Assembly (NCBI RefSeq): GCF_010747475.1
Contig: NZ_VSLZ01000004.1
Coordinates: forward strand, 248,001-312,000
Length of the DNA: 64,000 nucleotides
Reading direction: 5' to 3'
Origin: Halorussus sp. MSC15.2
GTDB taxonomy: Archaea > Halobacteriota > Halobacteria > Halobacteriales > Haladaptataceae
The position numbers were made by a program, and so were the translations under genes. A model generated the notes under the pieces. The model was not told the origin of the DNA. It did no database searches and saw only the letters and a list, made by a program, of their open reading frames with translations. Of the stretch, positions 9,185 to 23,540 are shown piece by piece (the first letter of the stretch is position 1; the number at the start of each line of letters is the position of its first letter).

Positions 9185-9402
9185 AGTTTCCTCCTTGATA
9201 GAAGGTAGGGGACCCACGTTAATGCGGTTTGTGCCTTATCAATCGAATGTCTGTGTGTCGTTTGTTTTACTGACTGGAGCAGTTAAGAGCGAGTATCTTA
9301 GTTTCAAAACTGTCGGGGAGGGTCGGCTGTTTCGGTGTCAGCGAAATCGAGTGCACGCCCTCGATATCGAGGACGGCGACGCGGGCTGGCCTCCGAAACT
9401 CG

Positions 9403-10212
9403 TCAGGCCCGCACGTCGATGACCTCGTACCGCACGTTCTGTTCGCGGAGCGCGTCGGTGTGAGCGGTGAGTTCGTCCGTCACCGCGACGAGGAGAACGT
9501 CGAGACCCTTCGTGGCGGCCTCCCGGACCGCCTCGACGGTCCCGAATCGAACGTCGGGGTCGAGTTCCGCGGTTCGGGCCGCGGCCAGCGCCTCGGTCCC
9601 CGCGACCGCGAGCAGGTCGTGGGAAGCGGCGCAGTCGGCGACCACGTCGGACTCGACCGCGTCGCTTCCGCCCTCCCGGACCGCCGGAACCGAAATCGCG
9701 GTGACCTTCCCGAGGTCGTAGTCGAGGACGCCCTCGAAGTCGGTGACGCCCACGTCGGTCCCCTCGTCGGCGTCCGTGACCGCAACCGCGGTTGTACTCC
9801 CCGACCGACCGGGGGTCGCGTGGAGTGCGCCCTCGCGCATCGACAGCGACACGGCGTCGCCCTCGGACACGTCGGCGGCGGCGATGGCGGTTTCGACTTC
9901 GACCCCGCCGACGATGTCGTCCGAAACGTGCCGGACGAACTCCCGGAGTTCGTCGGTCCGGCAGATGAGCCAGTCCACGCCCTGTTTGGTCACTTCGTAC
10001 CGACCCCGGCCGTGCTTCCGGACGTACTCCTGTTCGACGAGGTCCCGGAGGTAGTTGCTGACCGCCTGCGAAGTGACGCCGATGGCGTCGGCGATTTCGC
10101 GCTGACTCACCGCTGGCTGACGTTCCGCGATTTCGGCGAGTATCTGGTACCGCGTGGCGTCTCGCTTGCTGCGAAGCACGTTTCCGTCCTCGCCCTCCGA
10201 ACGCTCCGACAT
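9403..10212 (-). CDS. Winged-helix regulator beside the cobalamin operon
   Basis: A 269-residue protein. Residues 18-80 form a winged helix (TRYQILAEIAERQPAVSQREIADAIGVTSQAVSNYLRDL, then a wing YVRKHGRGRYEVTKQG) of the MarR/HTH type. The rest (about 85-269) is an acidic alpha/beta domain with several [13 protein letters not shown] strands that could bind a ligand, with no known metal or cofactor motif. It is transcribed divergently from cbiT across 148 bases containing AATACAAC/GTTTTATT/GTTGTATT half-sites and a 13-mer also found before cbiX2. This makes it the best candidate in the window for a cobalamin-regulon regulator. The link to B12 is positional inference. Confidence 0.8.
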   Translation of the reverse strand: MSERSEGEDGNVLRSKRDATRYQILAEIAERQPAVSQREIADAIGVTSQAVSNYLRDLVEQEYVRKHGRGRYEVTKQGVDWLICRTDELREFVRHVSDDIVGGVEVETAIAAADVSEGDAVSLSMREGALHATPGRSGSTTAVAVTDADEGTDVGVTDFEGVLDYDLGKVTAISVPAVREGGSDAVESDVVADCAASHDLLAVAGTEALAAARTAELDPDVRFGTVEAVREAATKGLDVLLVAVTDELTAHTDALREQNVRYEVIDVRA

Positions 10213-10243
10213 GGTCCCGGCTTCGGATTGGAAGTGAAAGTAT

Positions 10244-10256
10244 CTTTGCTTTAGTT
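10244..10256 (-). promoter_or_regulatory. Shared 13-mer before the regulator gene
   Basis: CTTTGCTTTAGTT (minus strand AACTAAAGCAAAG) ends 31 bases before the regulator start. The identical 13-mer stands 26 bases before cbiX2 (30766-30778). The position fits a promoter element or an operator overlapping it. See the finding on the cobalamin motif family. Confidence 0.45.
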
Positions 10257-10314
10257 CCGGTCCATTTTCGCTATCCGCGCCGATATCGGCCGTTCCTGAA
10301 ACCAGACTTTCCCT

Positions 10315-10355
10315 AATACAACCAAAATTGTTTTATTCCCAGTCGAGGTTGTATT
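10315..10355 (+). promoter_or_regulatory. cbiT promoter with three dyad half-sites
   Basis: AATACAAC (10315-10322), GTTTTATT (10330-10337, one mismatch to the reverse complement of the first) and GTTGTATT (10348-10355, exact reverse complement of the first) lie within 46 bases upstream of the cbiT ATG. The first two form an inverted repeat with a seven-base spacer. The AT-rich block is also where the archaeal TATA element would fall, so a bound repressor would block transcription. Binding is inference. Confidence 0.5.
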
Positions 10356-10360
10356 CGGTG

Positions 10361-10972
10361 ATGGCGAGGATTGCGCTCCCACGAGACGCGAAAGCAGGCC
10401 CGACGAAATCCGAGGTTCGGGCCGTGTTACTGGGCAAACTCGACCTGAATCCCGACGACCACTTCGTCGAGGTAGGGTCCTGCACGGGTGCCGTCACCGT
10501 CGAGGCGGCGCGACGGGCCGGACGGGTCACTGCCCTCGAACGGAAGGCGGACCGACTCGAAGTCACCCGCGAGAACCTCGCGGCCAACGATATCGAGACC
10601 GACGACACCGCGACCGACGACACGTCCGCGACGGTGGAGTTACGCGAGACCGAGGCCCCCGACGGAATCCCCGAGGACGCCGACGCGCTGTTCATCGGCG
10701 GGAGTCGGAACTACGAGGCGGTACTCGACCGCGCGGTCGAGACGGGCGTCGAGCGAGTGGTCATGAACGTCTCGCGGTTGGAGGTCGCCGGGCGGGCGGT
10801 CGAGGCGTTCCGCGAGCGCGACCTACTGGACGAAGTCGTCCAGTTTCAGGTGAGTCACGGGTACGAACTCGCCGGGGCGACGAGTTTCGACTCGCAGAAC
10901 CCCGTCTACATGCTCGTCGGCGGCACCGACTCCGGCGAGACGACGCCGGAGACCGAGGAGGTGTCGGCGTGA
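10361..10972 (+). CDS. cbiT: Cobalt-precorrin-6B C15-methyltransferase / decarboxylase subunit CbiT
   Basis: A 203-residue SAM methyltransferase that decarboxylates and methylates the ring at C15. The nucleotide-binding fold is clear: DDHFVEVGSCTGAVTVEAAR (residues about 31-50) and the acidic ALERK at strand 2. PTKSEVRAVLLGKL near residues 14-27 is the CbiT N-terminal signature. I start at ATG 10361 rather than at an upstream TTG because the preceding codons overlap the promoter half-sites. It is the first gene of an operon running to about 19444, with stop/start overlaps to cbiL. CbiE, its usual partner, is encoded separately at 28146. Confidence 0.92.
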   Translation: MARIALPRDAKAGPTKSEVRAVLLGKLDLNPDDHFVEVGSCTGAVTVEAARRAGRVTALERKADRLEVTRENLAANDIETDDTATDDTSATVELRETEAPDGIPEDADALFIGGSRNYEAVLDRAVETGVERVVMNVSRLEVAGRAVEAFRERDLLDEVVQFQVSHGYELAGATSFDSQNPVYMLVGGTDSGETTPETEEVSA

Positions 10973-11742
10973 CCCTCTACGGCGTCGGACTCGGACCGGG
11001 CGAGGCAGACCTCGTGACGGTCCGGGGCCAGCGCGTCCTCGAGACCGCCGACGTGGTCTACTCGCCGGGGCGACTCTCCCGGACCGTGGCGACCCACCAC
11101 GTCCCCGAGTCGAAGGTCGGCGACCTCGACTTCCCGATGACACGCGACCCGGAGACGCTGCGGACCGCGTGGAAGGAGGCCGCCGACGAAATCGCCCCTC
11201 AAGCGCGGGAGGGCGACGCCGCGTTCGTCACGCTGGGCGACCCCAACGTCTACTCGACGTTCGGCCACCTCCGGCGGACGATGGACGCCTTCCACCCCAA
11301 CGTGGACCTCGAAATCGTCCCCGGCGTGAGCGCGGTCACCGCGTTCACCACCGCGCTGGACGTGGAAATCGACGCCGGGGCGGGACTCGCGCTGCGGGAG
11401 GCGTCCGGCGGCGCGTCCCCGACCGGTCCCGACAGGATGGTGCTGTTCAAGGTGACCGACGCGCCCGCGACCCACGAGGGTCTCGACGCCGCGGGCTACG
11501 ACGTGACCTACGGCCGCCGCCTCTACATGGAGCAGGGCGAGACGGCCGTGACCGGCGACCCCGAAGAGGTCGCCGAGCGCGACTACTACACCCTCGCCTA
11601 CGCCGAGAAACGAGGTATCGAGAAGGACCGCGCGACGGCGAAGTTCGACGTGGACGACGGTGCGGAGGCGGGAGAGGACGGCGGAGCAGAGGCCGGAGAG
11701 ACCGACGGTCCGACTGCGGAGACCGAGGAGGGGTCGGCGTGA
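10969..11742 (+). CDS. cbiL: Cobalt-factor II C20-methyltransferase CbiL
   Basis: A 257-residue tetrapyrrole methylase. It begins at GTG overlapping the cbiT stop and opens with the family glycine loop YGVGLGPGEADLVTVRG. LGDPNVYSTFGHLR (about residues 84-97) and IVPGVSAVTAF are the characteristic CbiL/CobI substrate and SAM motifs. It adds the C20 methyl group to cobalt-factor II. The last 35 residues are an acidic Gly/Glu/Ala tail (EAGEDGGAEAGE type) without fold, common in haloarchaeal proteins. The stop overlaps the cbiF GTG. Confidence 0.93.
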   Translation: MTLYGVGLGPGEADLVTVRGQRVLETADVVYSPGRLSRTVATHHVPESKVGDLDFPMTRDPETLRTAWKEAADEIAPQAREGDAAFVTLGDPNVYSTFGHLRRTMDAFHPNVDLEIVPGVSAVTAFTTALDVEIDAGAGLALREASGGASPTGPDRMVLFKVTDAPATHEGLDAAGYDVTYGRRLYMEQGETAVTGDPEEVAERDYYTLAYAEKRGIEKDRATAKFDVDDGAEAGEDGGAEAGETDGPTAETEEGSA

Positions 11743-12647
11743 CCGACTCCCCGAGCGATACGGACGCCAAGACCGCAACCGACCCACAGACCGCCATCGA
11801 CGCCCAGACCGAGGGCCGGAGGCGGGAACGCGACGACCGCGTCTACGACCACACTGCGGGCGACGTGCAGGAGGGCGTCCCCTTCATCGGCGCGGGACCG
11901 GGCGACCCCGGCCTGCTCACGGTGACCGGGAAGGGGCTCGTCGAGGCCGCCGACCTCGTGGTCCACGCGGGGTCGCTGGTCAACAGCGAACTCTTAGAGG
12001 AGTACTGCGCCGACGCGGAACTGGTCAACTCGGTCGGCAAGGACCTCGAAGAACTGGTTCCGCTGATGCGGGACGCGTACGAGGAGGGCCGCGACGTGGT
12101 GCGACTCCACAGCGGCGACCCCGCTATCTACGGCGCGGCGCTCGAACAGATGGACGCGCTGGAACACGAGGGCGTGCCGACCTACTTCGTGCCGGGCGTC
12201 ACCTCGGCGTTCGCCGCGAGCGCGACCCTGCGGACCCAACTCACGCTCAACGAGACCGCGAACCACGTCGCGTTCACCCGGCCGCAGGGCAAGACGCTGG
12301 ACCCCGAGGACGACCACATCTCCGAGTTCGTGGAGATGGGCGACGTGACGACCTGCATCTACCTCGGGACCCACGCGGTCGGCGACACGATGGACCGCCT
12401 GCTGGCGGAGGGCCACGACCCCGAGACGCCCGTCACGGTCGTCTACCACGCCTCGTGGCCCGACGAGGAGATTATCGAGGGCACCATCGAGACCATCGGC
12501 GAGCGACTCGACGACGCCGGATACCGGGCCTCGGCGATGGTCATCATCGGGCAGGCGGGCACCGGTGCGGGTTACGAGCGGTCGTACCTCTACGGCGACT
12601 GGGCGAACCGCGGACCGAACGACGGCGAGACGGAGGCAGACGATTGA
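11739..12647 (+). CDS. cbiF: Cobalt-precorrin-4 C11-methyltransferase CbiF
   Basis: A 302-residue protein. Residues 1-45 are a charged, low-complexity leader. The methylase domain starts at VPFIGAGPGDPGLLTVTG, followed by HAGSLV, RLHSGDPAIYGAALEQMD and VPGVTSAFAASATL, the diagnostic CbiF/CobM series. It transfers a methyl group to C11 before CbiG opens the delta-lactone. The start is GTG 11739 with a four-base overlap to cbiL; a longer frame upstream merely overlaps cbiL. The operon continues after a one-base gap into cbiG. Confidence 0.92.
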   Translation: MTDSPSDTDAKTATDPQTAIDAQTEGRRRERDDRVYDHTAGDVQEGVPFIGAGPGDPGLLTVTGKGLVEAADLVVHAGSLVNSELLEEYCADAELVNSVGKDLEELVPLMRDAYEEGRDVVRLHSGDPAIYGAALEQMDALEHEGVPTYFVPGVTSAFAASATLRTQLTLNETANHVAFTRPQGKTLDPEDDHISEFVEMGDVTTCIYLGTHAVGDTMDRLLAEGHDPETPVTVVYHASWPDEEIIEGTIETIGERLDDAGYRASAMVIIGQAGTGAGYERSYLYGDWANRGPNDGETEADD

Positions 12648-12648
12648 T

Positions 12649-13623
12649 ATGAGCACTGACAACGATACCAACAGTTCCGACGGAAGCCACTGCAGCACGC
12701 CGGATTCGGACGGCGAAGTGGCAGAGGAGATAGCGATAATCAGTTTTGAGCGAAAACTCGACACCGCCGAGGAGATAGTCGAGGGCATCGGCGACCGATA
12801 CGACACTATCGACATCATCGAGTACCACGGCGACGTGTTCGAGGAGTACTGGGGCGAGTACGACTGCTTCGTCGGGTTGATGGCCAGCGGCATCGCCATG
12901 CGCAAGACCGCCCACCTGCTCGACGACAAGTGGGACGACCCCGCCATCTGCGTCGTGGACGAGGAACTGACGTGGGCCATCCCCATCACGGGCGGCCACC
13001 ACGGCGCGAATCAGGTCGCCGACGACCTCGCCACGATGGGCGCGGTGCCCGCGATGACGACCGCCTCGGAGGCCGCCGACAAGCAGGGCGTCGAGAAGCA
13101 GGCCAAGGCGCTGGACGCCCACGTCGTCAACGGCGACTCGACGGTCGCGACCAACCTCGCGGTGCTGGACGACGAACTCGGCCCCGTCGAGCGACTCGAC
13201 GGGCCGAAGGCGGTCCTCGTTGGCGACGACGTGACGGTCCTCAAGCGTAACGGGGAAGAGGGCGTCGTCCTCGGGACCGGGAGCGTCTCCGGCGCGACCG
13301 AAGACCAGTTCGTCTCGGCGTGGGAGCAGGCCCTCGAATCGACCGAGTACGACCTCGGCGACGTGGAGTTCGTCGCCACCGCGACCCGCAAGGAGGACGA
13401 GGAGGGCCTGCTCGCGGCGGCCGAGGCGCTGGACCTCGGCGTGGTCGCCTTCGAGAAGGAGACGCTGGAGGAGTTCGAGGGACCCTCCCCGTCCAAGTCC
13501 AAGGAACTCATCGGGTGGCCCGGCATCTCCGAGGCATCGGCCATCGCTGGCGGACGCAACCACGAACTCGAAGCCGAGAAGACGCGGTACGACGACGCCG
13601 TGACCGTGGCGGTGGGGCGGTAG
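12649..13623 (+). CDS. cbiG: Cobalt-precorrin-5A hydrolase CbiG
   Basis: A 324-residue protein. ATG 12649 follows the cbiF stop by one base. After a short acidic leader it reads AIISFERKLDTAEEI, then the central CbiG motif CFVGLMASGIAMRKTAHLL and VVDEELTWAIPITGGHHGANQ (about residues 80-130), and a C-terminal CbiG domain beginning VEFVATATRKEDEEGLLAAAE and ending IAGGR. It opens the ring-A delta-lactone and releases the C20 carbon as acetaldehyde in the oxygen-independent route. The N-terminal, linker and C-terminal CbiG domains are all present. Confidence 0.92.
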   Translation: MSTDNDTNSSDGSHCSTPDSDGEVAEEIAIISFERKLDTAEEIVEGIGDRYDTIDIIEYHGDVFEEYWGEYDCFVGLMASGIAMRKTAHLLDDKWDDPAICVVDEELTWAIPITGGHHGANQVADDLATMGAVPAMTTASEAADKQGVEKQAKALDAHVVNGDSTVATNLAVLDDELGPVERLDGPKAVLVGDDVTVLKRNGEEGVVLGTGSVSGATEDQFVSAWEQALESTEYDLGDVEFVATATRKEDEEGLLAAAEALDLGVVAFEKETLEEFEGPSPSKSKELIGWPGISEASAIAGGRNHELEAEKTRYDDAVTVAVGR

Positions 13624-13624
13624 C

Positions 13625-14509
13625 ATGGCGGGCGACCGAGCGACTGACGACACCGGGGGAGCGACCGACGACGGCGAGGGGACCGGCACCCTCTACGTCG
13701 TCGGCATCGGACCCGGCCTGCCCCACGCGATGACCCAAGAGGCGAAGGACGTCATTTCGACCGCCGACTGCGTGGTCGCCTCGAACCTGTATCAGGAGTT
13801 CCTGCGGAAGGACGGCACCATTCCCCCGGAGACGGCGACGGACGGCGGAGTCGCGACCAAGTCCGACGGGAGCGAGCAGGAAATCGTCCGCTCCTCGATG
13901 GGCCAGCAGGTCGAACTCGCACGCGAGGCGTTCGAGCGCGTCCGCGACGGGCAGGACGTGGCCCACGTCTCGGGCGGCGACCCGAACGTGTACGGCAAGA
14001 GCGACCTCGTGTTCACGATGGCCGAGGAGGAGGACGCCACCGACGTTCCCATCGAAATCGTGCCGGGCGTCACGGCGGCGCTCGGCGGAGCGGCCAACCT
14101 CGGCGCGCCGCTCAGCAACGACTTCTGCACGGTCTCGCTGTCGGACAAGTGGCGAGGCTGGGACGAAATCGAGGAGAAGCTACGGGCGGCCGCCATCAGC
14201 GGCTTCGTCATCGTCCTCTACAACTGCTGGCGCGACTACGAGCGCGCAATCGAGGTCGTCCGCGAGGAGCGGGCCGACCACGTGCCGGTCGGCATCTTCA
14301 ACGACGCGGGCCGGGGCGAGTCCGGGCGGAACCTCGACGACGAGACCCACACCATCACGACGCTCGGCGAAGCGACCGACCACGACGAGAAGGTCGGCGG
14401 AATGGGCACCTCCATCCTCGTCGGCAACCACGAGACGAAGGTGTGGAGCAACGACGACCGAGACTTCCTCGTCACCCCGCGCGGCGGGCGTGACGTAGAC
14501 GACTTCTGA
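13625..14509 (+). CDS. cbiH: Cobalt-precorrin-3 C17-methyltransferase CbiH, paralogue 1
   Basis: A 294-residue tetrapyrrole methylase: LYVVGIGPGLPHAMTQEAK, SGGDPNVYGKSDLV, IVPGVTAALGGAANLGAPLSNDFCTVSLSDKW and GFVIVLYNCW, all matching the CbiH/CobJ family that methylates C17 and contracts the ring. It lies one base after cbiG and four bases before a second CbiH-like gene. Two CbiH-type genes in tandem are usual in haloarchaeal clusters. Whether one has taken over a missing step (no CbiD or CbiJ is seen here) is an open question. Confidence 0.9.
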   Translation: MAGDRATDDTGGATDDGEGTGTLYVVGIGPGLPHAMTQEAKDVISTADCVVASNLYQEFLRKDGTIPPETATDGGVATKSDGSEQEIVRSSMGQQVELAREAFERVRDGQDVAHVSGGDPNVYGKSDLVFTMAEEEDATDVPIEIVPGVTAALGGAANLGAPLSNDFCTVSLSDKWRGWDEIEEKLRAAAISGFVIVLYNCWRDYERAIEVVREERADHVPVGIFNDAGRGESGRNLDDETHTITTLGEATDHDEKVGGMGTSILVGNHETKVWSNDDRDFLVTPRGGRDVDDF

Positions 14510-14512
14510 ACC

Positions 14513-15556
14513 ATGAGTACGGATAATACTGAATCGAAGTGTGGCGCATCGACCGGCGAATCGAGTACCGAGACGGAAACGGCCGAATCGAAGTGCGGCG
14601 CTAGCGAGGCGCGTAGCGCCTCGAACGCAAGCGGCGAAGCCGCGAGCGCGACCAAGACCGAGACGAGTTCCGAATCGAAGTGCGGCGCGTCGAGCAGTTC
14701 GTCGTCTTCGAGTTCGAAGTGCGGTGCGAGTAGCGACGACGACGAGCAGGAGGTCGGTTCGACCGTCGAGGACTTCGACGGCGACCCCGGCCGCCTCGTG
14801 GCGGTGGGTCTCGGACCCGGCGAGGCCGAGGGGATGACCACTCGCGCGAAGACCGCGCTCGCGGAGGTCGAGCAAATCGTCGGCTACACGACCTACGTGG
14901 ACCTCCTGCCCGACGACATCACCGACGACGCCGAGGACATCTACTCGACGCCGATGTGCGGCGAGGTGTCCCGGACCGAGGAAGCCATCGACCGGGCGCT
15001 GGCGGGCAACGACGTGGCCATCATCGGGAGCGGCGACCCCAACGTCTACGCGCTGGCGGGCCTCGCGCTCGAAATCCTCGAATCCAAGGGCGGGACGGCC
15101 TCGATGGTCGATTTCGAGGTCGTGCCCGGCGTCCCGGCCGCCCAGTCGTGCGCGGCGCGGGTCGGCGCGCCGCTGGTCAACGACACCGTGAGCATCAGCC
15201 TCTCGGACCACCTCACCGACATGCCGACCATCGAGTCGCGGCTTCACGCCACCGCGAAGGAGGGGTTCACCATCGCCATCTACAACCCGTGGAGTCGCAA
15301 GCGCCGGGAGAACTTCGAGAAGTGCTGCGAGATTCTGCTGGAACACCGCGACGCGGACACCCCTGTCGGCGTCGTCCACGGCGCGGGCAGAGACGACGAG
15401 CAGGTCGAAATCACCACGCTCGGCGACCTCCCGGAACTCGGCGAGACCGACCTGATAGACATGACGACCACCCTCCTCGTCGGCAACGAGGAGACGTACG
15501 TGTGGGACGACCGGATGGTCACCCCGCGCGGGTACGAGACCAAGTACGACTACTGA
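14513..15556 (+). CDS. cbiH: CbiH paralogue 2 with four Lys-Cys-Gly repeats
   Basis: A 347-residue protein. The C-terminal 255 residues are a CbiH/CobJ-type methylase (LVAVGLGPGEAEGMTTRA, GYTTYVDLL, GSGDPNVYALAGLALE, VVPGVPAAQSCAARVGAPLVND, IAIYNPWSRKR). The first 90 residues are a Ser/Thr/Glu-rich, disordered-looking arm with four SKCGAS copies, with Cys at 10, 28, 57 and 70. The arm also contains an eight-base-pair DNA palindrome at 14605-14623. The Cys repeats could hold a metal or a redox cluster near the corrin site. CbiH proteins do not normally carry such an arm, and no role is established. Confidence 0.9.
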   Translation: MSTDNTESKCGASTGESSTETETAESKCGASEARSASNASGEAASATKTETSSESKCGASSSSSSSSSKCGASSDDDEQEVGSTVEDFDGDPGRLVAVGLGPGEAEGMTTRAKTALAEVEQIVGYTTYVDLLPDDITDDAEDIYSTPMCGEVSRTEEAIDRALAGNDVAIIGSGDPNVYALAGLALEILESKGGTASMVDFEVVPGVPAAQSCAARVGAPLVNDTVSISLSDHLTDMPTIESRLHATAKEGFTIAIYNPWSRKRRENFEKCCEILLEHRDADTPVGVVHGAGRDDEQVEITTLGDLPELGETDLIDMTTTLLVGNEETYVWDDRMVTPRGYETKYDY

Positions 15557-15816
15557 TGTACAGAGTGACCATCGACACCGACGCGTGCGACGGTATCTTC
15601 GCGTGCCTGACCCGCGACGACCGGTTCGCCGAGGGCGAGGACGGTCTCGCGACCATCGAGGCGGACGGGGAGAACGTCCGCCGGGAAGACGGCCGCGTCG
15701 TCGCGGAGTTCGACGACGACCGGCGCGCGGACGCCGAGCAGGCCGCCGCGGCCTGTCCCCCGAGCGCGATTCGCGTCGAGACCGTGGGCGAAGCGGGAGG
15801 TGGCGGGAATGAGTGA
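15556..15816 (+). CDS. Small [3Fe-4S]-type ferredoxin
   Basis: An 86-residue protein whose ATG overlaps the cbiH2 stop by one base. It starts MYRVTIDTDACDGIFACLTRD and has ACPPSAI near residue 66: a Cys-x5-Cys pair and a distant Cys-Pro, the pattern of single-cluster [3Fe-4S] ferredoxins (no second cluster motif). It is acidic. Its place between methyltransferase genes suggests it feeds electrons to a corrin-ring reaction, for instance the reduction step for which no CbiJ is seen, but that is inference. Confidence 0.75.
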   Translation: MYRVTIDTDACDGIFACLTRDDRFAEGEDGLATIEADGENVRREDGRVVAEFDDDRRADAEQAAAACPPSAIRVETVGEAGGGGNE

Positions 15817-16487
15817 CGCCGAGGTCGGCGCGAGCGCGCCCGACGACGTGCTGGCGAGCCACCCGGAACTGGCCTACTTCTGGGGCCGGGTCGCCGGGAA
15901 CGGCGACGTGACACGGGACGCCGTTGAGGTGAGAACCAGCGACGAGACCGCGGCCCGACGACTGGCCGCTATCGCCGGGGCCGAGCGCGTGGACCACCGC
16001 ATCTCCGAGCGCGACTACGCGCACGACACCGCCGTCACCCGGACAGAGGACGAGTTCACGGTACAGGTCGTCGGACGCACGCTCGCCGACCGCGCGAGCG
16101 CCGCCCTCGGTCTCCCGGTCGAAGACCAACCCGGCGGCTACCGGTTCGGCGCGTTCGCCGACCACGACCGCCAACTGCTCCGGGGACTCTCGGAGGGATG
16201 CGGCACCATCTGCCTCAAGAGTTCCAGCGGGACCGTCGGAATCTCGTTCGTCCACGATGACCGGACGCTGGTGGAGACCGTTCGGGGTCTCGTCGAGCGT
16301 TCGGAGCCGGACGCCCCCCACCGGCGAGGTGGCCGAAGCCTCGTCGGGGCGGTACTGGTTCGGCGTGGACGACGACGCCGCGGGCCGATTCGGGGAATGG
16401 CTCTACGAGGGAACCGAGGAATCGGGGCTGTTCTCGCCGTCCCGGCGGCGGAAACTGCGGAAGAGCCTCGAACGGGCCGAGGGATGA
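15809..16487 (+). CDS. LAGLIDADG-like cobalamin-operon protein (frameshifted)
   Basis: ATG 15809 opens MSDAEVGASAPDD; the reading frame is intact to about residue 170 (LVERSEPDAP) and resumes in another frame as TGEVAEASSGRYWFGVDDD to the stop at 16487. A run of six C at about 16314-16319 explains the break: five C would restore a 225-residue protein. Two motifs resemble LAGLIDADG helices, YFWGRVAGNG (residues 23-32) and LLRGLSEGCG (123-132), with Asn31 and Cys131 where homing endonucleases have the catalytic acids. It overlaps the ferredoxin by eight bases and cbiX by four, so it belongs to the operon. I infer a domesticated, non-cutting fold; its job in B12 synthesis is unknown. Confidence 0.6.
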
Positions 16488-17707
16488 GTCGCGCTAAAGG
16501 GACCGCGACGGAGTTCGCGGGCGAGGCCGTCCTGCTGGTCGGCCACGGGTCCCGGCGCGAGAAATCTAACGAGCAGGTTCGCGAACTCGCGGCCGCGCTG
16601 GAGGAGCGCATCGGCGTGGCGGTCGATGCGGCGTTCCTCGAACTCGCGGAGCCGTCGATACCGGATGCGATAGACGCCCTCGCGCCCGCCGTCGAGGAGG
16701 TGTCGGTCGTCCAGTTGTCGCTGTTCGCCGCCAGTCACGTCAAGAACGACGTGCCGCTGGCGGTGGAGCAGGCCCGCCGGGACCACCCCGAGACGACGTT
16801 CGACGTCGGGTCGCACCTCGGGGTCCACCCGGCGCTGCTCGACCTGTTGGACGACCGGGCGGCCGAAGTCGAAGCGGAACTCGGCGTGGACCGCGAGGAC
16901 GACGACGTGGCGGTCGCGCTCTGCGCCCGCGGGTCCAGCGACCCCGACGCCAACGCCGACGTGCACAAACTCGCTCGCCTGCTCTACGAGGGCCGGGAGT
17001 TCTCGTCGGTGGAAGCGACGTTCATCGGCGTCACGGAACCGACGCTCGACGAGACGCTCCACGGCGTCGCCAAGGAGCGACCCGACGCCGTGGTCGCGCT
17101 GCCGTACATGCTCGGCGACGGGGTGCTGACCCAGCGGGTCCGCGACTGGACCGACGAGTTCGCCGAGGAGTACCCCTACGTCGACGCCGCGGCGGGCGAC
17201 CCGCTCGGGACCGACTCGCGCCTGCTCGACGTGCTGGCCGACCGCTGGCAGGAGGCCCGGACCGGCAGCGTGGAGATGTCCTGTGACACCTGCAAGTACA
17301 AGGTCGAACTCGACGGCTACGAGGAAGACCAAGGCGGTGCGCGGGCGATGCTCCGGGCGCTGACCCATCAGGAGACCCACGCCGACCGCGAGGACGTGGA
17401 CGACGACCCGCACGTCCACGACGCGCCGGACAAGCACGTCGCGGTCTGCACGAACCAGACCTGCGCCGCGGACGGGTCGGCCGCCGTGCTGGAACGCCTG
17501 CGACAGGAAGTACGCGACTCCGAGGAGGCCGACGCCCGCATCACCCGGTCGTCGTGTCTCGGCCAGTGCGGCGAAGGCCCGATGGTCGCCGTCTACCCCG
17601 ACGGCGTCTGGTACGGCGGCGTCGGCGAGGACGACGCCGAGCGAATCGTCTCGTCCCACCTCGACAGGGACCGCATCGTGAGCGACATCGTGGACCAGAC
17701 GCTCTGA
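16484..17707 (+). CDS. cbiX: Two-domain CbiX cobaltochelatase fused to a 2Fe-2S domain
   Basis: A 407-residue protein starting at ATG 16484 (overlap ATGA); the longer open frame before it is only the shifted neighbour. Two CbiX/SirB domains occupy about residues 14-125 (LLVGHGSRREKSNEQVRELAA, SLFAASHVKNDVPLA) and 145-255. They insert Co2+ into sirohydrochlorin, with His20 and His89-type ligands. MSCDTCKYKV (about 265) and an Asp/His linker follow. The final 80 residues are a thioredoxin-fold [2Fe-2S] domain (CTNQTC ... SSCLGQCGEGPMV). This fusion suggests redox or iron-sulfur control of cobalt insertion. Confidence 0.88.
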   Translation: MSRAKGTATEFAGEAVLLVGHGSRREKSNEQVRELAAALEERIGVAVDAAFLELAEPSIPDAIDALAPAVEEVSVVQLSLFAASHVKNDVPLAVEQARRDHPETTFDVGSHLGVHPALLDLLDDRAAEVEAELGVDREDDDVAVALCARGSSDPDANADVHKLARLLYEGREFSSVEATFIGVTEPTLDETLHGVAKERPDAVVALPYMLGDGVLTQRVRDWTDEFAEEYPYVDAAAGDPLGTDSRLLDVLADRWQEARTGSVEMSCDTCKYKVELDGYEEDQGGARAMLRALTHQETHADREDVDDDPHVHDAPDKHVAVCTNQTCAADGSAAVLERLRQEVRDSEEADARITRSSCLGQCGEGPMVAVYPDGVWYGGVGEDDAERIVSSHLDRDRIVSDIVDQTL

Positions 17708-17732
17708 AAACGGATTCCGAAACCATTCAACC

Positions 17733-18107
17733 ATGAGCTGTTACGAAATCGAAGCACTACGACTCGGACTGATGAACGTACTGGGAACCGAAGACGAGAG
17801 CGCGCGCCGACACGCACAGAAGGAACTGGAGGGCCACCTCGACGGGCCGGTCGGCGCGCTCGCGGCGGCCGAGACGCTGGCCGAAATCGAGCGCCACCTC
17901 GACGCCGCGCTGGTGGACCTCGAAGCGGAAATCGCCGAGACCAGCGACGACGCCCCGGAGTACGACTACCTCCGCGGGCGACTGGTCGCGGTCCGTGACG
18001 CCGAGCGCGCGGTCCAGCGCCTGACGACGCAGGGCGAGAGCGTACTGGACGGTCTCGGCGAGGCCCACGACGTGCTCCACGAGGCGTTCCCGGTCGAAGA
18101 CGAATGA
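17733..18107 (+). CDS. DUF3209 family protein
   Basis: A 124-residue, mostly helical acidic protein beginning MSCYEIEALRLGLMNVLGTED. It matches DUF3209, a small family found almost only in archaeal and a few bacterial cobalamin clusters next to cbiX. Cys3 in the opening MSCYEIEALR is the only cysteine and could be functional. It starts 25 bases after cbiX and overlaps the next gene by four bases. A cobalt-chaperone or chelatase accessory role is plausible from context but unproven. Confidence 0.8.
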   Translation: MSCYEIEALRLGLMNVLGTEDESARRHAQKELEGHLDGPVGALAAAETLAEIERHLDAALVDLEAEIAETSDDAPEYDYLRGRLVAVRDAERAVQRLTTQGESVLDGLGEAHDVLHEAFPVEDE

Positions 18108-19444
18108 GCCTCGACCGAAGCGTCTCGGTCGGTCTGGGCGAGGCGACGGCTCGCGGAAGTCGCCAGCAGTGGCGGCGGTCCAGCGTGACCGCGCTCGGAG
18201 ACGGTGGCTTCGCTGTCGGGACCGCCGACGGGACCATCCGGTCGCTGGACGCCGACGGACGGGAGCGGTGGCGAGCGCCCGGCGAGGAGATGGCCGTCGC
18301 GCTCACCGAGTTCGCGGGCGGTGAGAGGACCGACGGTTCGCGAACCTCGTCGGACCGTCGGTCCGACGGCGGCGTCGCCGTCGGCACCCGGGGCGACCGC
18401 GGCCGGATTCGACTGCTCGACGGCGACGGGAGCGAGCGGTGGCGCTACGACACCGCGGACGACCTCGGGGGTCCCGCGAAGGAGAGCCTGTTCTGGTACC
18501 CCTTCGTGGTCGATATGGTCGCCGACGGGCCGGTCGAGGGCGACGACGCGTCCGACGGGACCGCAGAGGGCCGACTCTACGTCGCGGCCCGGCGGTACGA
18601 GCGCGACGGCGACGAGCGCGTCTGGAACAGCGCCGTGTACGCGTTCGGCCCCGACGGCGGGGTCCGCTGGCGGTACGAGACCGACGCCTCTCCCATCGCG
18701 CTCTCGCTCGGCGACCGACAGTCGTCGTCCGACGACGATGACCGCGCGAAGCGTCTCGCGGTGGCTTACAACCGCTGCGGCGGCGACCACGACCGGGGTC
18801 TCGTCGTGCTGGACGCCGAGTCCGGTACCCCCGTCTCGGACTGGGACCCGGAGACCGACGGCGAGCGTCGCGTCGGGGACGCGTCGCTCTCCGGCGGCGT
18901 CGTCGCGGCGGCGAGTCACGGCGACTACCGTGGGTACGCGCTCGATGCGGAGCGCGCCGAACAGCGGTGGGCCGCGGACCTCGGCGTCGAACGCGAGGTC
19001 GGCGAGGAGACGCTGTACGCCTACCCGAACCACGTCCACCTCGCGGACGAGGTCGCGCTGTTCGTCACGGGCAACACCTTCCCCGAGGAGGGCCGCGAGG
19101 CCGAGGGACGCCACCCGAACGAACACACCATCGCCGCGCTCGGACGCGAGGGTGGCGAGCGCCTCTGGACGGCCCCCGTCGGCGGGTTCGTCGCGGAGTT
19201 GTCGGCATCTGACGGGCGCGTCGCGGTGCCCTGCGCACAGCACTTCCGAGACCGCGACGCCGAGGCCCACGCGCTGCGGGTGTTCGACGCCCGAGAGGGA
19301 CCCGCCAGAGAAGTCGCTGCGGAGGGCATCGTGACCGCCGCCGCGCTCTCGGGCGACCGCGTCGCCTTCGTCGAGGAGCCAGTGGAGTACCACGACGAGG
19401 GCGAGGTTCGCGGGGAGTACCGACTGCGAATCGAAGCGGTCTGA
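18104..19444 (+). CDS. Cytoplasmic PQQ-like beta-propeller protein
   Basis: A 446-residue protein made of repeated blades with WRYDTADD, RWRYETDA and RWAADLG type Trp-docking motifs of the PQQ/BamB-like propeller. There is no signal peptide or Tat motif, so it stays in the cytoplasm. It is the last gene of the cbiT operon and starts inside the DUF3209 stop (ATGA). Cofactor-binding residues of true PQQ dehydrogenases are not recognisable, so a scaffold or sensor role is more likely. It is followed by a T-run terminator. Confidence 0.75.
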   Translation: MSLDRSVSVGLGEATARGSRQQWRRSSVTALGDGGFAVGTADGTIRSLDADGRERWRAPGEEMAVALTEFAGGERTDGSRTSSDRRSDGGVAVGTRGDRGRIRLLDGDGSERWRYDTADDLGGPAKESLFWYPFVVDMVADGPVEGDDASDGTAEGRLYVAARRYERDGDERVWNSAVYAFGPDGGVRWRYETDASPIALSLGDRQSSSDDDDRAKRLAVAYNRCGGDHDRGLVVLDAESGTPVSDWDPETDGERRVGDASLSGGVVAAASHGDYRGYALDAERAEQRWAADLGVEREVGEETLYAYPNHVHLADEVALFVTGNTFPEEGREAEGRHPNEHTIAALGREGGERLWTAPVGGFVAELSASDGRVAVPCAQHFRDRDAEAHALRVFDAREGPAREVAAEGIVTAAALSGDRVAFVEEPVEYHDEGEVRGEYRLRIEAV

Positions 19445-19834
19445 GCAGCAGACTGACCCGTCTGACTCTCCTCGTATCAGTTTTTCCTACCGAGAGGTCC
19501 CGCCACGGTCCGCTCGACGCGAAGCCCCCGCTTCTCGGTCGAACTTTCACTTCGCTACCGAACCGAACGATACCGACGTTCGCAGTGCGACGATACTCCT
19601 ATCCCACGAGTGGCGTGATTCGGAGAGCCAGTGTCCTCGTTCGCTCCACGTCCGCTTCGTACGCTATCGTCGGAGAATCGGCGTTCGATACGCACAGGCC
19701 GGTCTCTCGGGGCTTCGAACAGGTAGCAGTCGGCGACCGCTTCGACCGCCCGCACAGCGACGCTGTAGAAATTCCATCGCGGAACGCGCGTTCGACGCCG
19801 AATCTTTACCCCCTCTGACCGCCAACCACCGAAC
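19445..19834. other. Intergenic stretch after the cobalamin operon
   Basis: 390 bases without a supportable gene. TTTTT at 19481-19485 just after the operon is a plausible archaeal terminator. Short frames here have no homologous look or start context. ATCTTTACC at about 19802-19810 is a reasonable TATA-like element for the small gene at 19835. Confidence 0.5.
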
Positions 19835-19957
19835 ATGTCCACGGAGAACTGGCCGCGAGAAATCGGCGACCATCGCGTCAACGACCGCTGGGAGTGCGAG
19901 GACTGCGGCGCGGACTTCGACTGCCTCTCGCAGTTCCGCGAGACCGACTGCGAGTAG
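19835..19957 (+). CDS. 40-residue zinc-ribbon micro-protein
   Basis: ATG 19835 encodes MSTENWPREIGDHRVNDRWE followed by CEDCGADFDCLSQFRETDCE and TAG. CxxC plus two further Cys can bind one zinc ion, in the style of the many C2H2/zinc-ribbon micro-proteins of haloarchaea. A TATA-like ATCTTTACC stands about 25-33 bases upstream, fitting a leaderless transcript. Convergent with the 2Fe-2S/cbtAB genes. A regulatory or RNA/protein-binding role is possible; nothing in the sequence ties it to B12 except position. Confidence 0.6.
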   Translation: MSTENWPREIGDHRVNDRWECEDCGADFDCLSQFRETDCE

Positions 19958-19992
19958 TTCGACTGCGAAAAGGAGTTGGAAGCGTCCCGCCT

Positions 19993-20361
19993 TCAGCACC
20001 CGTCAGACGGCGACCCGTCGGAGTCAGACGGGCCGACACCCAACCGAGTCGCGTCTGGGCCGAACACGTCGGCGAGTACCTCCGGCACCTCGTCGGGCGT
20101 CACTCCCGAGAACCACCGACCGCGGGGCTGGACGGCCACTGCGGTCCCGTCGGCGCTACAGAGACCGAGGCAACTCGTCTCGACGAGGTGGACCCGCGAC
20201 CAGAGCACGTCGCGCTCTCGGAGCCACGCCGTCGTCGCCTCGAAGACCGAGGGACCGTGAGCGTCCCCACAGCAGGCGTGTTCGGAGTCGCGGGCGTGCG
20301 TGCAAACCAGCACATGGTCGGTGAACCCGTTCACACGGACTTCCTCGGTGCGTTCGCGCAT
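19993..20361 (-). CDS. Thioredoxin-like [2Fe-2S] protein next to cbtAB
   Basis: A 122-residue protein starting at ATG 20361, one base into the cbtA stop. It reads VLVCTHARDSEHACCGDAHGPSVF ... VHLVETSCLGLCSADGTAVAVQPRGRWFSGV: the Cys spacing and LGLC loop of thioredoxin-fold [2Fe-2S] ferredoxins, with an extra Cys-Cys pair. It is similar in layout to the C-terminal domain of CbiX (16484). As last gene of the cbtB-cbtA unit it may couple cobalt uptake to redox state or deliver electrons to the pathway; inference. Confidence 0.75.
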   Translation of the reverse strand: MRERTEEVRVNGFTDHVLVCTHARDSEHACCGDAHGPSVFEATTAWLRERDVLWSRVHLVETSCLGLCSADGTAVAVQPRGRWFSGVTPDEVPEVLADVFGPDATRLGVGPSDSDGSPSDGC

Positions 20362-21089
20362 CAGTCGGCGTGACGCCCCGCTCCGACCGAGCGAGAATCC
20401 ACGTCGGGTGACCGCCGGTCGCGGCGGAGCAACCACGCGTGCCCGCTCGCGAGGACTGACCAGAGACCGACCTGACCGAAGACGACGAGACCGCTGAACG
20501 AGGCCGCGAGGCCCGCTGGAACCGCACCGTGGGTCGGGTTCGCGGGCGCGAACCCGGCCGACACGGCGAGCAGTGCGAGCGGTACAGCGGCCCCCGCCAC
20601 CGCGGCCGGGCGACCGGAACGGGATTCGAGTCGCCGATACGCGTATCCGGAGAACGCGCACGTCAGTGCGCCAGCGACCATCATCGCCGCGTACCACGAC
20701 AGTCGAGCGTCGGCCCCGAGCGTCTGCTCGACGCCCGCGGGTCGCGGAGGCAGGACGAGCCACGGTGCGCCCGAGACGGTGACGAATCCCGCGGCCGCCA
20801 GCACGTAGCTCGCGGCGTCCCCGCCCGGAAGACCGGGTTCGAGGAAGTAGTACGCCAGTCCGAACACGGCACCGAGCAGCCCCCCGAAGCAGACACCGGC
20901 GGCGACGCTGACCAGTTCGGTGGCGTGTTCCGAGACGGCCGCGTCGGCATGGTCGTGCTCGGCGTGGTCGTGGCCCGCCGTCTCCGCGAACCCCACCATG
21001 GGATTGCCGACGAGAGCGACGAACAGCCCGAAGGCGAGTCCCGCGACCAGACCGGCCTTCAGCCCGCGGAGGACGTAGTCCGCGAACAT
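20361..21089 (-). CDS. cbtA: Cobalt transporter subunit CbtA
   Basis: A 242-residue membrane protein starting MFADYVLRGLKAGLVAGLAFGLFVALVGNP. A His/Asp cluster AGHDHAEHDHADAAVSEHA (about residues 38-56) follows the first helix, the CbtA metal-binding loop. Further helices carry AGVCFGGLLGAVFGLAYYF and GAPWLVLPPRPAGVE. CbtA works with CbtB in predicted cobalt uptake for B12 synthesis. The pair lies between the two halves of the cobalamin cluster and shares promoter sequence features with other cobalamin genes. Confidence 0.88.
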   Translation of the reverse strand: MFADYVLRGLKAGLVAGLAFGLFVALVGNPMVGFAETAGHDHAEHDHADAAVSEHATELVSVAAGVCFGGLLGAVFGLAYYFLEPGLPGGDAASYVLAAAGFVTVSGAPWLVLPPRPAGVEQTLGADARLSWYAAMMVAGALTCAFSGYAYRRLESRSGRPAAVAGAAVPLALLAVSAGFAPANPTHGAVPAGLAASFSGLVVFGQVGLWSVLASGHAWLLRRDRRSPDVDSRSVGAGRHAD

Positions 21090-21090
21090 G

Positions 21091-21279
21091 TCAGTGGCAG
21101 GTGATTCCCGCGGCGTGTCGGAAGTTGTGCATCGAATCGTGGAGCATCGGGTCCTGTCCGAACAGGAGCGCGAACCCCACGGCCGCGAGGAGAGCGATTC
21201 CGAGCGCCGCCTTCAACGGTGTGAGTTCGACTCGCGCACGTTCGATTCGACCGTAGACGGTGTCGTTTGCAGTCGTCAT
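21091..21279 (-). CDS. cbtB: Cobalt transporter subunit CbtB
   Basis: A 62-residue single-helix protein: a charged N-terminus, helix LKAALGIALLAAVGFALLFG and the conserved His-rich end DPMLHDSMHNFRHAAGITCH. This tail is the CbtB signature and probably delivers Co2+ to CbtA. Its stop lies one base before the cbtA start. The 52 bases before its ATG hold a TATA-like TATAATAA and two inverted repeats, so expression is probably tightly regulated. Confidence 0.88.
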   Translation of the reverse strand: MTTANDTVYGRIERARVELTPLKAALGIALLAAVGFALLFGQDPMLHDSMHNFRHAAGITCH

Positions 21280-21280
21280 T

Positions 21281-21316
21281 GCAAATTCATTTGCTTATTA
21301 TACAAGTATGTTTGTA
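21281..21316 (-). promoter_or_regulatory. cbtB promoter with two inverted repeats
   Basis: GCAAATTCATTTGC (21281-21294) is a perfect six-base inverted repeat with a two-base spacer directly before the start codon. TACAA-N6-TTGTA (21301-21316) is a second one further upstream. On the cbtB strand TATAATAA lies 23 bases before ATG, so the first dyad would cover the transcription start and the second would flank the TATA box. Operator function is inferred. Confidence 0.5.
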
Positions 21317-21331
21317 AAACTTCCGTCTGCG

Positions 21332-23506
21332 CTATCGGTCGGTGGCGGCGAGAACTCGCTCGGGCGACAGCGACTCCAAGGGGATTCGCTCGCCGTCCGC
21401 GGCCGTAGCTATCTCGCCGACCAGTCCGCGGTCGCTATCGCCCGCGTCCACCACCACGACGTGGGCGTCCCGTTCGGCGAGTCCGCGGGCGGCCCGTCGG
21501 GTCGCCTCGGTCGGACTCCCCGACGCCACGTTGGCCCGGCCGTCGGTGACGACCACGACGACGCTCGCCGCCGCGTCGGCCCGCTCGACCACCTCGCCCG
21601 CGGTCCGGAGTCCCGCGGGGAGCGGCGTCCGGTCGCCGACCGGCAGGTCCTTGAGGTGGCGGGCGGCGAGGTCGGTGCTGTCGGTCGGCGGGAGCAACAC
21701 CTCGGCGTCCTCGCCCGCGAACGCGACGAAGGCGACCTCGTCGCGGCGCTCGTAGGCGTCCCGCAGCAGTTCCAGCACGACTCCCTTCGCGGTCCGCATC
21801 GCCGACCGCATCGAGACGCTGGCGTCCACCGCGAAGACGACCAGCGCCGACTGCTCGCGCGTCCGGACGGACGTGCGGAGGTCGCGCTCGGCCACCGCGT
21901 CCGCGCCGCGACTCGCCGCGGCGCGGACCGACGCGGCGGCGTCCACGGCGTCGCCCGCCTCGGCGCGCTCGGTTCTGACCTGCGCACCCCGGCCTTCGGA
22001 ACTCGGCGTCGCGGCCGCCCGCGAACCGTCCCCGTTGCGGGTCGCGGTCGAAGTTGCGTCGGCCTCCACACTGTCGATGTCCGGGCGTTCGGCCTCGCCG
22101 ACGCCGCGACGGGCCTGTCCGGGCACCAGCGGTACTCCCTCCTCGGACTCGTCGAAGCCACCCTCAGAGTCGCCCCCCGACTCCGAGTTCTCGCGGTCCT
22201 CGTCTGCGGCGTCAGGCTCGTCGCCGTCTCCGGTCTTCACGTCGGCGGGCGACTCCGCGCCGGGTCGGTCGCCGCGGTGGGAGTCGTCATCGTCGCTCGT
22301 CGAGTCCTCGGCGTCCGAGTTCCCCGATTGGGATTCGGGGCTGTCGGAATCCTCGGAGTCCGCCTCGGCGTGAGGACCGGAATCGTCGGCGTTGCCGGAG
22401 TCGTCGTTCGGCCCGCCCTCGGTGGCGGAGTCCTCGGCGTCCGAGTCTCCCTGTGGCTCGTCTCCTTCGTCCTCCGCGGCGTCCGCCTCGTCGTCGAAGT
22501 GGTCGTCGAGAACGTCGTCGGGGTCGGGCGCGTCCTCGAACGGGCGACTCCGGAGGCGGTGGGGGAGCGCGAGTTCGGCGGCCTCCCGGACGTCGGACTC
22601 GACGACCTTCGCCCGCCCGTCGAGCGCCGCGACGGTCCGGGCCGCGCGGGCGACCGAGATGTCCGCGCGGTGGCCCTCGACGCCCGCGTCTCGGCAGAGT
22701 TCGGCGATGTCGGCCTTGAACTGTTCGGGGAGGGTCACGCCCCCGAGGGTCTCGCGGGCGTCCGCGAGGCGGTCGGCGAGGTCGGCCGTCTCGTCGGCGA
22801 ACCCCTCGCGGAGGTCGCCCGTCTCGCCCAGCGCCCGGTCGAGAATCGTCACGCGGTCCTCGATGTCCTCGCACCCGGTGACGGTGGTCTGCAGGGCGAA
22901 GCGGTCCTTCAGTTGCGGTCGCAGGTCGCCCTCCTCTGGGTTCATCGTCCCGACCAGCGTGAAGTTCGCGGGGTGGGAGACGCTGACGCCGTCGCGCTCG
23001 ACGCGGTTGACCCCGGACGCCGCCGCGTCGAGGAGCACGTCCACGAGGTGGTCGTCCAGCAGGTTCACCTCGTCCACGTAGAGGATGCCGCGGTTCGCCC
23101 GGGCGAGCAGTCCGGGGTCGAACTCCGCCTCGCCATCGAGCGCGTCGGCCACCGAGAGCGTGCCGACCACGCGCTCGCGGGTCGCGCCCAGCGGGAGGGT
23201 CACGAGCGGAACGCCCCGGGTCTCGACCGGCGGGTCGGTCCGTGTCCGGCAGTCCGCGCACTGCGCTCCGGGGTCGTCCGGCGGACACCCGTACGGGCAG
23301 TCAGCGACCGCCCGCTGGTCGGGGAGGAGGTCCACCAGCGCCCGTACTGCGGTCGATTTGGCCGTCCCCTTCTCGCCGCAGACCAGTAACCCGCCGAGAC
23401 CGTCGTCCGTTGCGACCGCGAGCAACGCCCGCTTCAGGCGTTCCTGTCCGACTATCGCCGGAAAGGGGACGGTCGAAGCCTTTTTGGAGCCGCGTAATTC
23501 AATCAT
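21332..23506 (-). CDS. ChlI-ChlD fusion, cobaltochelatase motor subunit
   Basis: A 724-residue protein starting at ATG 23506 (the longer frame runs into cobN). Residues 1-330 are a ChlI-type AAA+ domain: FPAIVGQERLKRALL, Walker A GEKGTAKST, a four-Cys insertion DCPYGC ... CADC, and Walker B GILYVDEVNLL. A very acidic Ser/Asp/Glu linker of about 140 residues follows. The C-terminus is a von Willebrand A domain with the MIDAS sequence DASVSMRSA and VTDGRANV. It powers metal insertion by CobN, from which it is transcribed divergently across only 34 bases. Specificity for cobalt rather than magnesium is inferred from the neighbours; no chlorophyll genes are present. Confidence 0.9.
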   Translation of the reverse strand: MIELRGSKKASTVPFPAIVGQERLKRALLAVATDDGLGGLLVCGEKGTAKSTAVRALVDLLPDQRAVADCPYGCPPDDPGAQCADCRTRTDPPVETRGVPLVTLPLGATRERVVGTLSVADALDGEAEFDPGLLARANRGILYVDEVNLLDDHLVDVLLDAAASGVNRVERDGVSVSHPANFTLVGTMNPEEGDLRPQLKDRFALQTTVTGCEDIEDRVTILDRALGETGDLREGFADETADLADRLADARETLGGVTLPEQFKADIAELCRDAGVEGHRADISVARAARTVAALDGRAKVVESDVREAAELALPHRLRSRPFEDAPDPDDVLDDHFDDEADAAEDEGDEPQGDSDAEDSATEGGPNDDSGNADDSGPHAEADSEDSDSPESQSGNSDAEDSTSDDDDSHRGDRPGAESPADVKTGDGDEPDAADEDRENSESGGDSEGGFDESEEGVPLVPGQARRGVGEAERPDIDSVEADATSTATRNGDGSRAAATPSSEGRGAQVRTERAEAGDAVDAAASVRAAASRGADAVAERDLRTSVRTREQSALVVFAVDASVSMRSAMRTAKGVVLELLRDAYERRDEVAFVAFAGEDAEVLLPPTDSTDLAARHLKDLPVGDRTPLPAGLRTAGEVVERADAAASVVVVVTDGRANVASGSPTEATRRAARGLAERDAHVVVVDAGDSDRGLVGEIATAADGERIPLESLSPERVLAATDR

Positions 23507-23540
23507 ACTTGTACTACTACAATGGAGGTTTAACAACGTT
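23507..23540. promoter_or_regulatory. 34-base divergent promoter of chlID and cobN
   Basis: The two starts are only 34 bases apart. TTGTA-CTAC-TACAA (23509-23522) is a perfect inverted repeat in the middle. On the minus strand TTAAAC lies about 27 bases before the chlID ATG, as expected for a leaderless promoter. On the plus strand GGAGG (23524-23528) lies 12 bases before the cobN ATG and suggests a leadered transcript starting inside chlID. One bound regulator could switch both genes. Confidence 0.55.

Follow-up and report, generated by a model that had tools for sequence, protein, structure and literature searches.

The cobalamin gene cluster of Haloferax volcanii, HVO_B0062 to HVO_B0052, includes four genes whose assignment is an open annotation issue, among them HVO_B0055, recorded as 'function unassigned' and located between HVO_B0056 (ferredoxin) and HVO_B0054 (cbiX1) (PMC8305020). 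The paper describing this cluster does not bring up LAGLIDADG in its main text (PMC8305020). A literature search joining LAGLIDADG, cobalamin and archaea returned nothing relevant. LAGLIDADG proteins are DNA binders.

The closest described folds are the endonucleases PI-PfuI and I-DmoI and the regulator WhiA (DUF199), which likewise carries a domesticated, degenerate LAGLIDADG domain, its role there being other than cleavage (PMC3781837). In actinomycetes, WhiA acts together with the Fe-S protein WhiB, and its LAGLIDADG domain is believed to take no part in DNA binding (PMC4850268). Here, we analysed a stretch of 64,000 nucleotides from Halorussus sp. MSC15.2 (hereafter, the window), in which a gene with a predicted LAGLIDADG fold lies within a cobalamin operon.

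The gene and its operon

The operon in the window runs in the order cbiT, cbiL, cbiF, cbiG, cbiH1, cbiH2, ferredoxin, LAGLIDADG-fold gene, cbiX, DUF3209 and PQQ propeller gene, with chlID and cobN located downstream of the latter after other intervening genes (Table 1). The same order is found in Halorussus aquaticus, where the LAGLIDADG-fold gene is annotated only as 'cobalamin biosynthesis protein', and in Halorubrum lacusprofundi, where it is a 'hypothetical protein', and matches the order of the Haloferax volcanii locus tags (PMC8305020). By gene order, the gene is thus a member of the HVO_B0055 family. The original prediction had taken the overlaps with both neighbours as a sign that the gene is an integral part of the operon; the overlaps are there, 8 bases with the ferredoxin gene and 4 bases with cbiX, and operon membership proved both real and conserved.

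Table 1. Positions, in the window, of the LAGLIDADG-fold gene, its main residues and its operon neighbours
Feature	Positions	Strand	Remarks
Core genes cbiT, cbiL, cbiF, cbiG, cbiH1, cbiH2	10361..15556	+	Same operon, upstream
Single-cluster 4Fe-4S ferredoxin gene (Fer4_15; HVO_B0056 by order)	15556..15816	+	Upstream, overlaps LAGLIDADG-fold gene by 8 bases
LAGLIDADG-fold gene (family of HVO_B0055)	15809..16487	+	Intact form 225 aa; window copy frame-broken after residue 170
Motif 1, YFWGRVAGNG, residues 23-32	15875..15904	+	Asn31 at catalytic-acid place
His72	16022..16024	+	Invariant, 62/62 relatives
Motif 2, LLRGLSEGCG, residues 123-132	16175..16204	+	Cys131 at catalytic-acid place (Cys in 60/62)
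Cys135	16211..16213	+	Invariant, 62/62; by register on cleft face, first strand of domain 2
C6 run	16314..16319	+	One base too many compared with intact reading frame
cbiX cobaltochelatase, C-terminal 2Fe-2S thioredoxin-like domain	16484..17707	+	Overlaps LAGLIDADG-fold gene by 4 bases
DUF3209 gene (HVO_B0053 by order)	17733..18107	+	Same operon type
PQQ-type beta-propeller gene (HVO_B0052 by order)	18104..19444	+	Same operon type

The stretch proposed as a gene is indeed one, but a frame break in the window copy had been missed. Its 679 bases are not divisible by three: residues 1-170 are read in frame 1 (96% identity to the Halorussus aquaticus gene), while the extra C in the C6 run places the following residues in another frame from about 16317 (residues 170-225, 98% identity). 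The Halorussus aquaticus orthologue (96% identical) has an intact frame, nearly all relatives consist of one uninterrupted frame of about 200-270 aa, and among the regional genes of Halorussus aquaticus with a counterpart in the window the two-frame split is unique to this gene. Either an error in base calling or a mutation of recent date may account for the break. The open frame of the window continues into cbiX as an ORF of 635 aa, the first 170 residues of the LAGLIDADG-fold gene sharing an open frame with cbiX (15800-17707); should the extra C be genuine, a truncated LAGLIDADG protein fused to CbiX may be produced in this strain.

Other features of the region are a Ser-rich N-terminal extension of cbiH2 (14513-14840) in which the cysteine motif KCGAS recurs, and an imperfect inverted repeat, TAATACAACCAAAATTGTTTTA, at 10314-10335, i.e. 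26-47 bases before the cbiT start. Divergent from and beside cbiT lies a winged-helix gene with a DUF7839 domain (9403-10212), for which Halorussus aquaticus has a MarR-type annotation. An Rfam scan of 9300-24500 gave no RNA family.

Fold, catalytic positions and conserved face

Sequence comparison links the protein to LAGLIDADG proteins beyond what chance would give. Pfam LAGLIDADG_3 (PF14528), the only Pfam family found in the window protein, matches it with E 0.015, and matches 35 of the 62 relatives, with a best E of 2.7e-5. At E 1.5e-4, a profile of the 62-member family retrieved a LAGLIDADG ORF from another family of the phylum, outside the haloarchaea; at E 0.009, it also picked up the endonuclease part of an MCM intein from haloarchaea. 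The LAGLIDADG ORF of locus L080, itself recognized by LAGLIDADG_3 at 6e-9, aligns motif to motif with the family over 137 columns (E 0.003, with an hhalign probability of only 10%), motif 2 pairing ICRGIFDADGMISYK with LLRGLLEGCGTVCFK; it carries homing-endonuclease-associated repeats and, in contrast to the family, has D at both catalytic places and lies in a different genomic setting. A PDB sequence search with the family profile gave no meaningful match, and the sole NCBIfam match, sub-threshold and to part of the RNA polymerase A'' model, was discarded. When the N-terminal half was compared with the C-terminal half by hhalign, the score of 14.5 did not exceed what shuffled controls reached (up to 16.8); by sequence, the halves therefore do not recognize each other.

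AlphaFold predictions for two different members, from seven sequences each, reached mean pLDDT values of 68.6 and 63.7, in each case only in the best of five predictions. By DSSP, both models show a doubled alpha-beta-beta-alpha-beta-beta-alpha pattern with two LAGLIDADG helices, the last of the LAGLIDADG helices (residues 210-224) closing the chain. Across residues 15-225, the fold comparison gave for the first model PI-PfuI (Z 12.2; 3.7 Å, 180 residues), WhiA (Z 11.6) and I-DmoI (Z 11.2), and for the second model WhiA (Z 11.3) and PI-PfuI (Z 11.2); the best E in Foldseek was 1.3e-5, and the structure matches listed were LAGLIDADG proteins throughout, led by these three. The proposed fold was thus recovered in two separate structure predictions and in the fold comparisons.

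The likeness to PI-PfuI and I-DmoI, a shared double fold, extends along the full chain (Z 11-12), but the present protein has Cys in place of the second catalytic acid and is encoded by a conserved, non-mobile operon gene. The likeness to WhiA chains (Z 11.3-11.6) concerns the degenerate N-terminal domain; WhiA, however, has a C-terminal HTH, whereas no HTH was found in a Pfam scan of the 62 members of this archaeal family, which belongs to a biosynthetic operon and has a conserved Cys/His pattern.

Two LAGLIDADG-like motifs about 100 residues apart had been expected, and both are present with a spacing of exactly 100. When the protein is aligned to a true LAGLIDADG protein, residues 31 and 131 fall on the catalytic places. 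Both motifs are conserved in the orthologues, yet of the Asn/Cys pair that was predicted at these places only the Cys is typical: residue 131 is C in 60, T in 1 and A in 1 of the 62 relatives, whereas residue 31 is D in 35, S in 17, N in only 4, G in 4 and A in 2. Therefore, none of the relatives has kept the second acid, nearly half have also lost the first, and an acid at the end of both motifs, as in LAGLIDADG homing endonucleases, is not found in the family. Judged by known LAGLIDADG chemistry, DNA cleavage by the protein is unlikely.

With the cleft face assigned by strand alternation and by the register of I-CreI, which we take to apply here, rather than by model coordinates, the predicted cleft-facing positions of domain 2 have a mean entropy of 0.40 bits compared with 0.63 for the strand core, while in domain 1 the relation is reversed, the cleft face (1.71) being more variable than the core (1.16). 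Beyond the structural motif residues, the invariant positions include, among others, H72, C135, G144, S146 and S179. Conservation in the aligned sequences is thus one-sided, i.e. restricted to one face of domain 2 (C131, C135, K/R137, S146 and S179), plus H72.

Distribution and operons without the gene

The LAGLIDADG-fold gene was found in 146 of 292 haloarchaeal genomes, all of which have CbiG, and in 146 of the 151 genomes with CbiG; among a further 59 CbiG genomes it is present in 56. All operon-borne copies examined adjoin cbiX. The gene shows none of the marks of mobility looked for (intron, intein, free-standing selfish gene or patchy position) but keeps to one position within the cbi operon, and no relative was found among 12 pattern-scan candidates from viral contigs. 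By its distribution and context, it is a domesticated operon gene, probably vertically inherited, rather than a mobile one. From the models and comparisons together, we regard the predicted fold and the domestication as settled computationally, with high confidence.

The only relocated copy seen lies apart from the cbi operon in genome G021 (L088:7445-10454), between two PF01545 cation-efflux genes and beside a rhodanese gene; these genes share a strand and are separated by short gaps.

Eight CbiG genomes lack the gene, and seven of their loci were inspected. Six of these (genomes G001, G007, G129, G269, G629 and G671) are without ferredoxin, LAGLIDADG-fold, DUF3209 and PQQ genes altogether, forming a second haloarchaeal type of cbi operon (loci L082, L083, L085, L086, L089 and L090). 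A His-rich tail replaces the 2Fe-2S domain of CbiX in four of the six, and no cbiX was found in the stretch inspected of the other two. In a cbiF-cbiG-cbiH2 tree the six module-less operons form one clade (support 0.999), so their joint lack of these genes represents one evolutionary event. In the seventh locus, from genome G052, the other module genes are retained, and a second, His-tailed cbiX occupies the very position that the LAGLIDADG-fold gene has in relatives of this genome (L084:12203-13144). An operon with a His-tailed CbiX that still has the LAGLIDADG-fold gene was also found (L036). The cbiH2 extension with CGAS cysteine repeats occurs in most operons of the window type and in G052, and is missing in the other type.

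Of the eight CbiG genomes that lack the LAGLIDADG-fold gene, three have no COX1, compared with none of the 62 that carry the gene. We rejected a reading as an adaptation to aerobic life, since this association is weak, the shared lack in one clade being one event.

Candidate roles of the protein

The one-sided conservation, the cation-efflux context in G021, the second cbiX in place of the gene in G052, the Cys repeats of CbiH2 and the cbiX and ferredoxin neighbours point to the handling of a metal or corrin, the metal-transporter context and the replacement by cbiX each coming from one genome (G021 and G052, respectively). The L036 operon, which has the gene in spite of its His-tailed CbiX, speaks against this reading. 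We give even chances to the reading that the protein handles cobalt or a corrinoid. A former single-chain LAGLIDADG endonuclease would have been recruited into one of the two kinds of haloarchaeal cobalamin operon, and its old catalytic cleft, chiefly the domain 2 half, would have been rebuilt as a site for cobalt or a cobalt-corrin intermediate, made of Cys131, Cys135, Lys/Arg137, Ser146, Ser179 and Trp183 together with His72 from domain 1. The protein would not cut DNA but would act alongside the products of its two flanking genes, the ferredoxin and the CbiX cobaltochelatase, in an accessory role, i.e. delivery of the metal or intermediate, or its protection, rather than as a ring-building enzyme; in other haloarchaea, the core enzymes do without it. 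More tentatively, and with some doubt on our part, the divalent-metal cleft of the endonuclease may have turned into a thiolate/histidine site carrying cobalt or a cobalt-corrin intermediate, in a metabolic LAGLIDADG protein belonging to a cysteine-rich add-on module; this module of one operon type would further comprise the ferredoxin, the 2Fe-2S CbiX, the CbiH2 with Cys repeats, DUF3209 and the PQQ propeller.

As the main alternative, the fold could bind DNA without cutting it and regulate the cobalamin operon, e.g. at the 22-base box before cbiT, which we consider unlikely, though worth weighing. DNA binding would be in keeping with LAGLIDADG proteins in general, and the box is conserved, operator-like and unique in the genome, the next best place having two mismatches. 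Moreover, a second activator of cob/cbi genes has been inferred in Halobacterium (PMC3794607), and WhiA, one of the closest folds, has an Fe-S protein as its partner, just as an Fe-S protein is encoded next door here; the LAGLIDADG domain of WhiA is, however, the part thought not to bind DNA (PMC4850268). Each of the 26 aligned haloarchaeal cbi operons has a recognizable box, whether or not the LAGLIDADG-fold gene is present, and so have all seven examined operons that lack this gene; before the relocated G021 copy the box is absent, so another factor must read it. The DUF7839 winged-helix protein, encoded at the same place in several, though not all, operons, is a possible reader. In addition, the conserved face, confined to domain 2, holds C, G, S, W and a single K/R, not many basic residues, and Pfam detects no HTH. 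Net charge was also considered and does not discriminate: the family (K+R 9.6%, D+E 18.5%) resembles the neighbouring winged-helix regulator (10.0% and 19.3%) and stays below the MCM inteins (K+R 11-13%). Altogether, the evidence leans somewhat against an autoregulator, and we favour cobalt or corrinoid handling over a DNA-binding regulator.

A catalytically dead fold might also serve purely as a scaffold bringing together ferredoxin, CbiX and a methyltransferase. The tight place between the ferredoxin gene and cbiX with overlapping reading frames, the strong conservation of one face and the precedent of WhiA (PMC3781837) would fit; the invariant Cys and His, however, exceed what a scaffold needs, and the gene survives relocation from the operon in G021, which makes this an improbable explanation.

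Even less probable, to the point of being a marginal option, is a missing pathway enzyme, i.e. one for CbiD-type C1 methylation or CbiJ-type reduction. HVO_B0055 is one of four candidates for these two gaps (PMC8305020), and CbiD and CbiJ are indeed absent here; across 15 genomes, with or without the LAGLIDADG-fold gene, neither CbiD (PF01888) nor CbiJ (PF02571) had a genome-wide match. However, five of these genomes have the core operon but lack CbiD, CbiJ and the LAGLIDADG-fold gene alike, and in four of these five the operon has none of the four candidates, so the gaps also occur where this gene is absent. The window protein matches neither PF01888 nor PF02571, and no methyltransferase or reductase fold was among the structure matches listed. 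Finally, an active homing endonuclease in transit, for which the fold alone speaks, can practically be dismissed: all 62 of 62 relatives have another residue in place of the second catalytic acid, and the same is indicated by the fixed operon place, the co-occurrence with CbiG and the lack of a relative in the pattern scan of viral contigs.

Of the four genes left unassigned in the haloarchaeal cobalamin cluster, our analysis provides one with a predicted fold and a likely origin, and narrows its role to that of an accessory in one operon type only, rather than a universal filler of the CbiD and CbiJ gaps. As judged from the sequences, a gene that is kept in nearly all B12-making haloarchaea probably helps to handle a metal or a B12 precursor. 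If the metal or corrin reading is true, the family would represent a LAGLIDADG protein outside nucleic-acid work, and would show how a selfish endonuclease can enter cofactor metabolism by recruitment.
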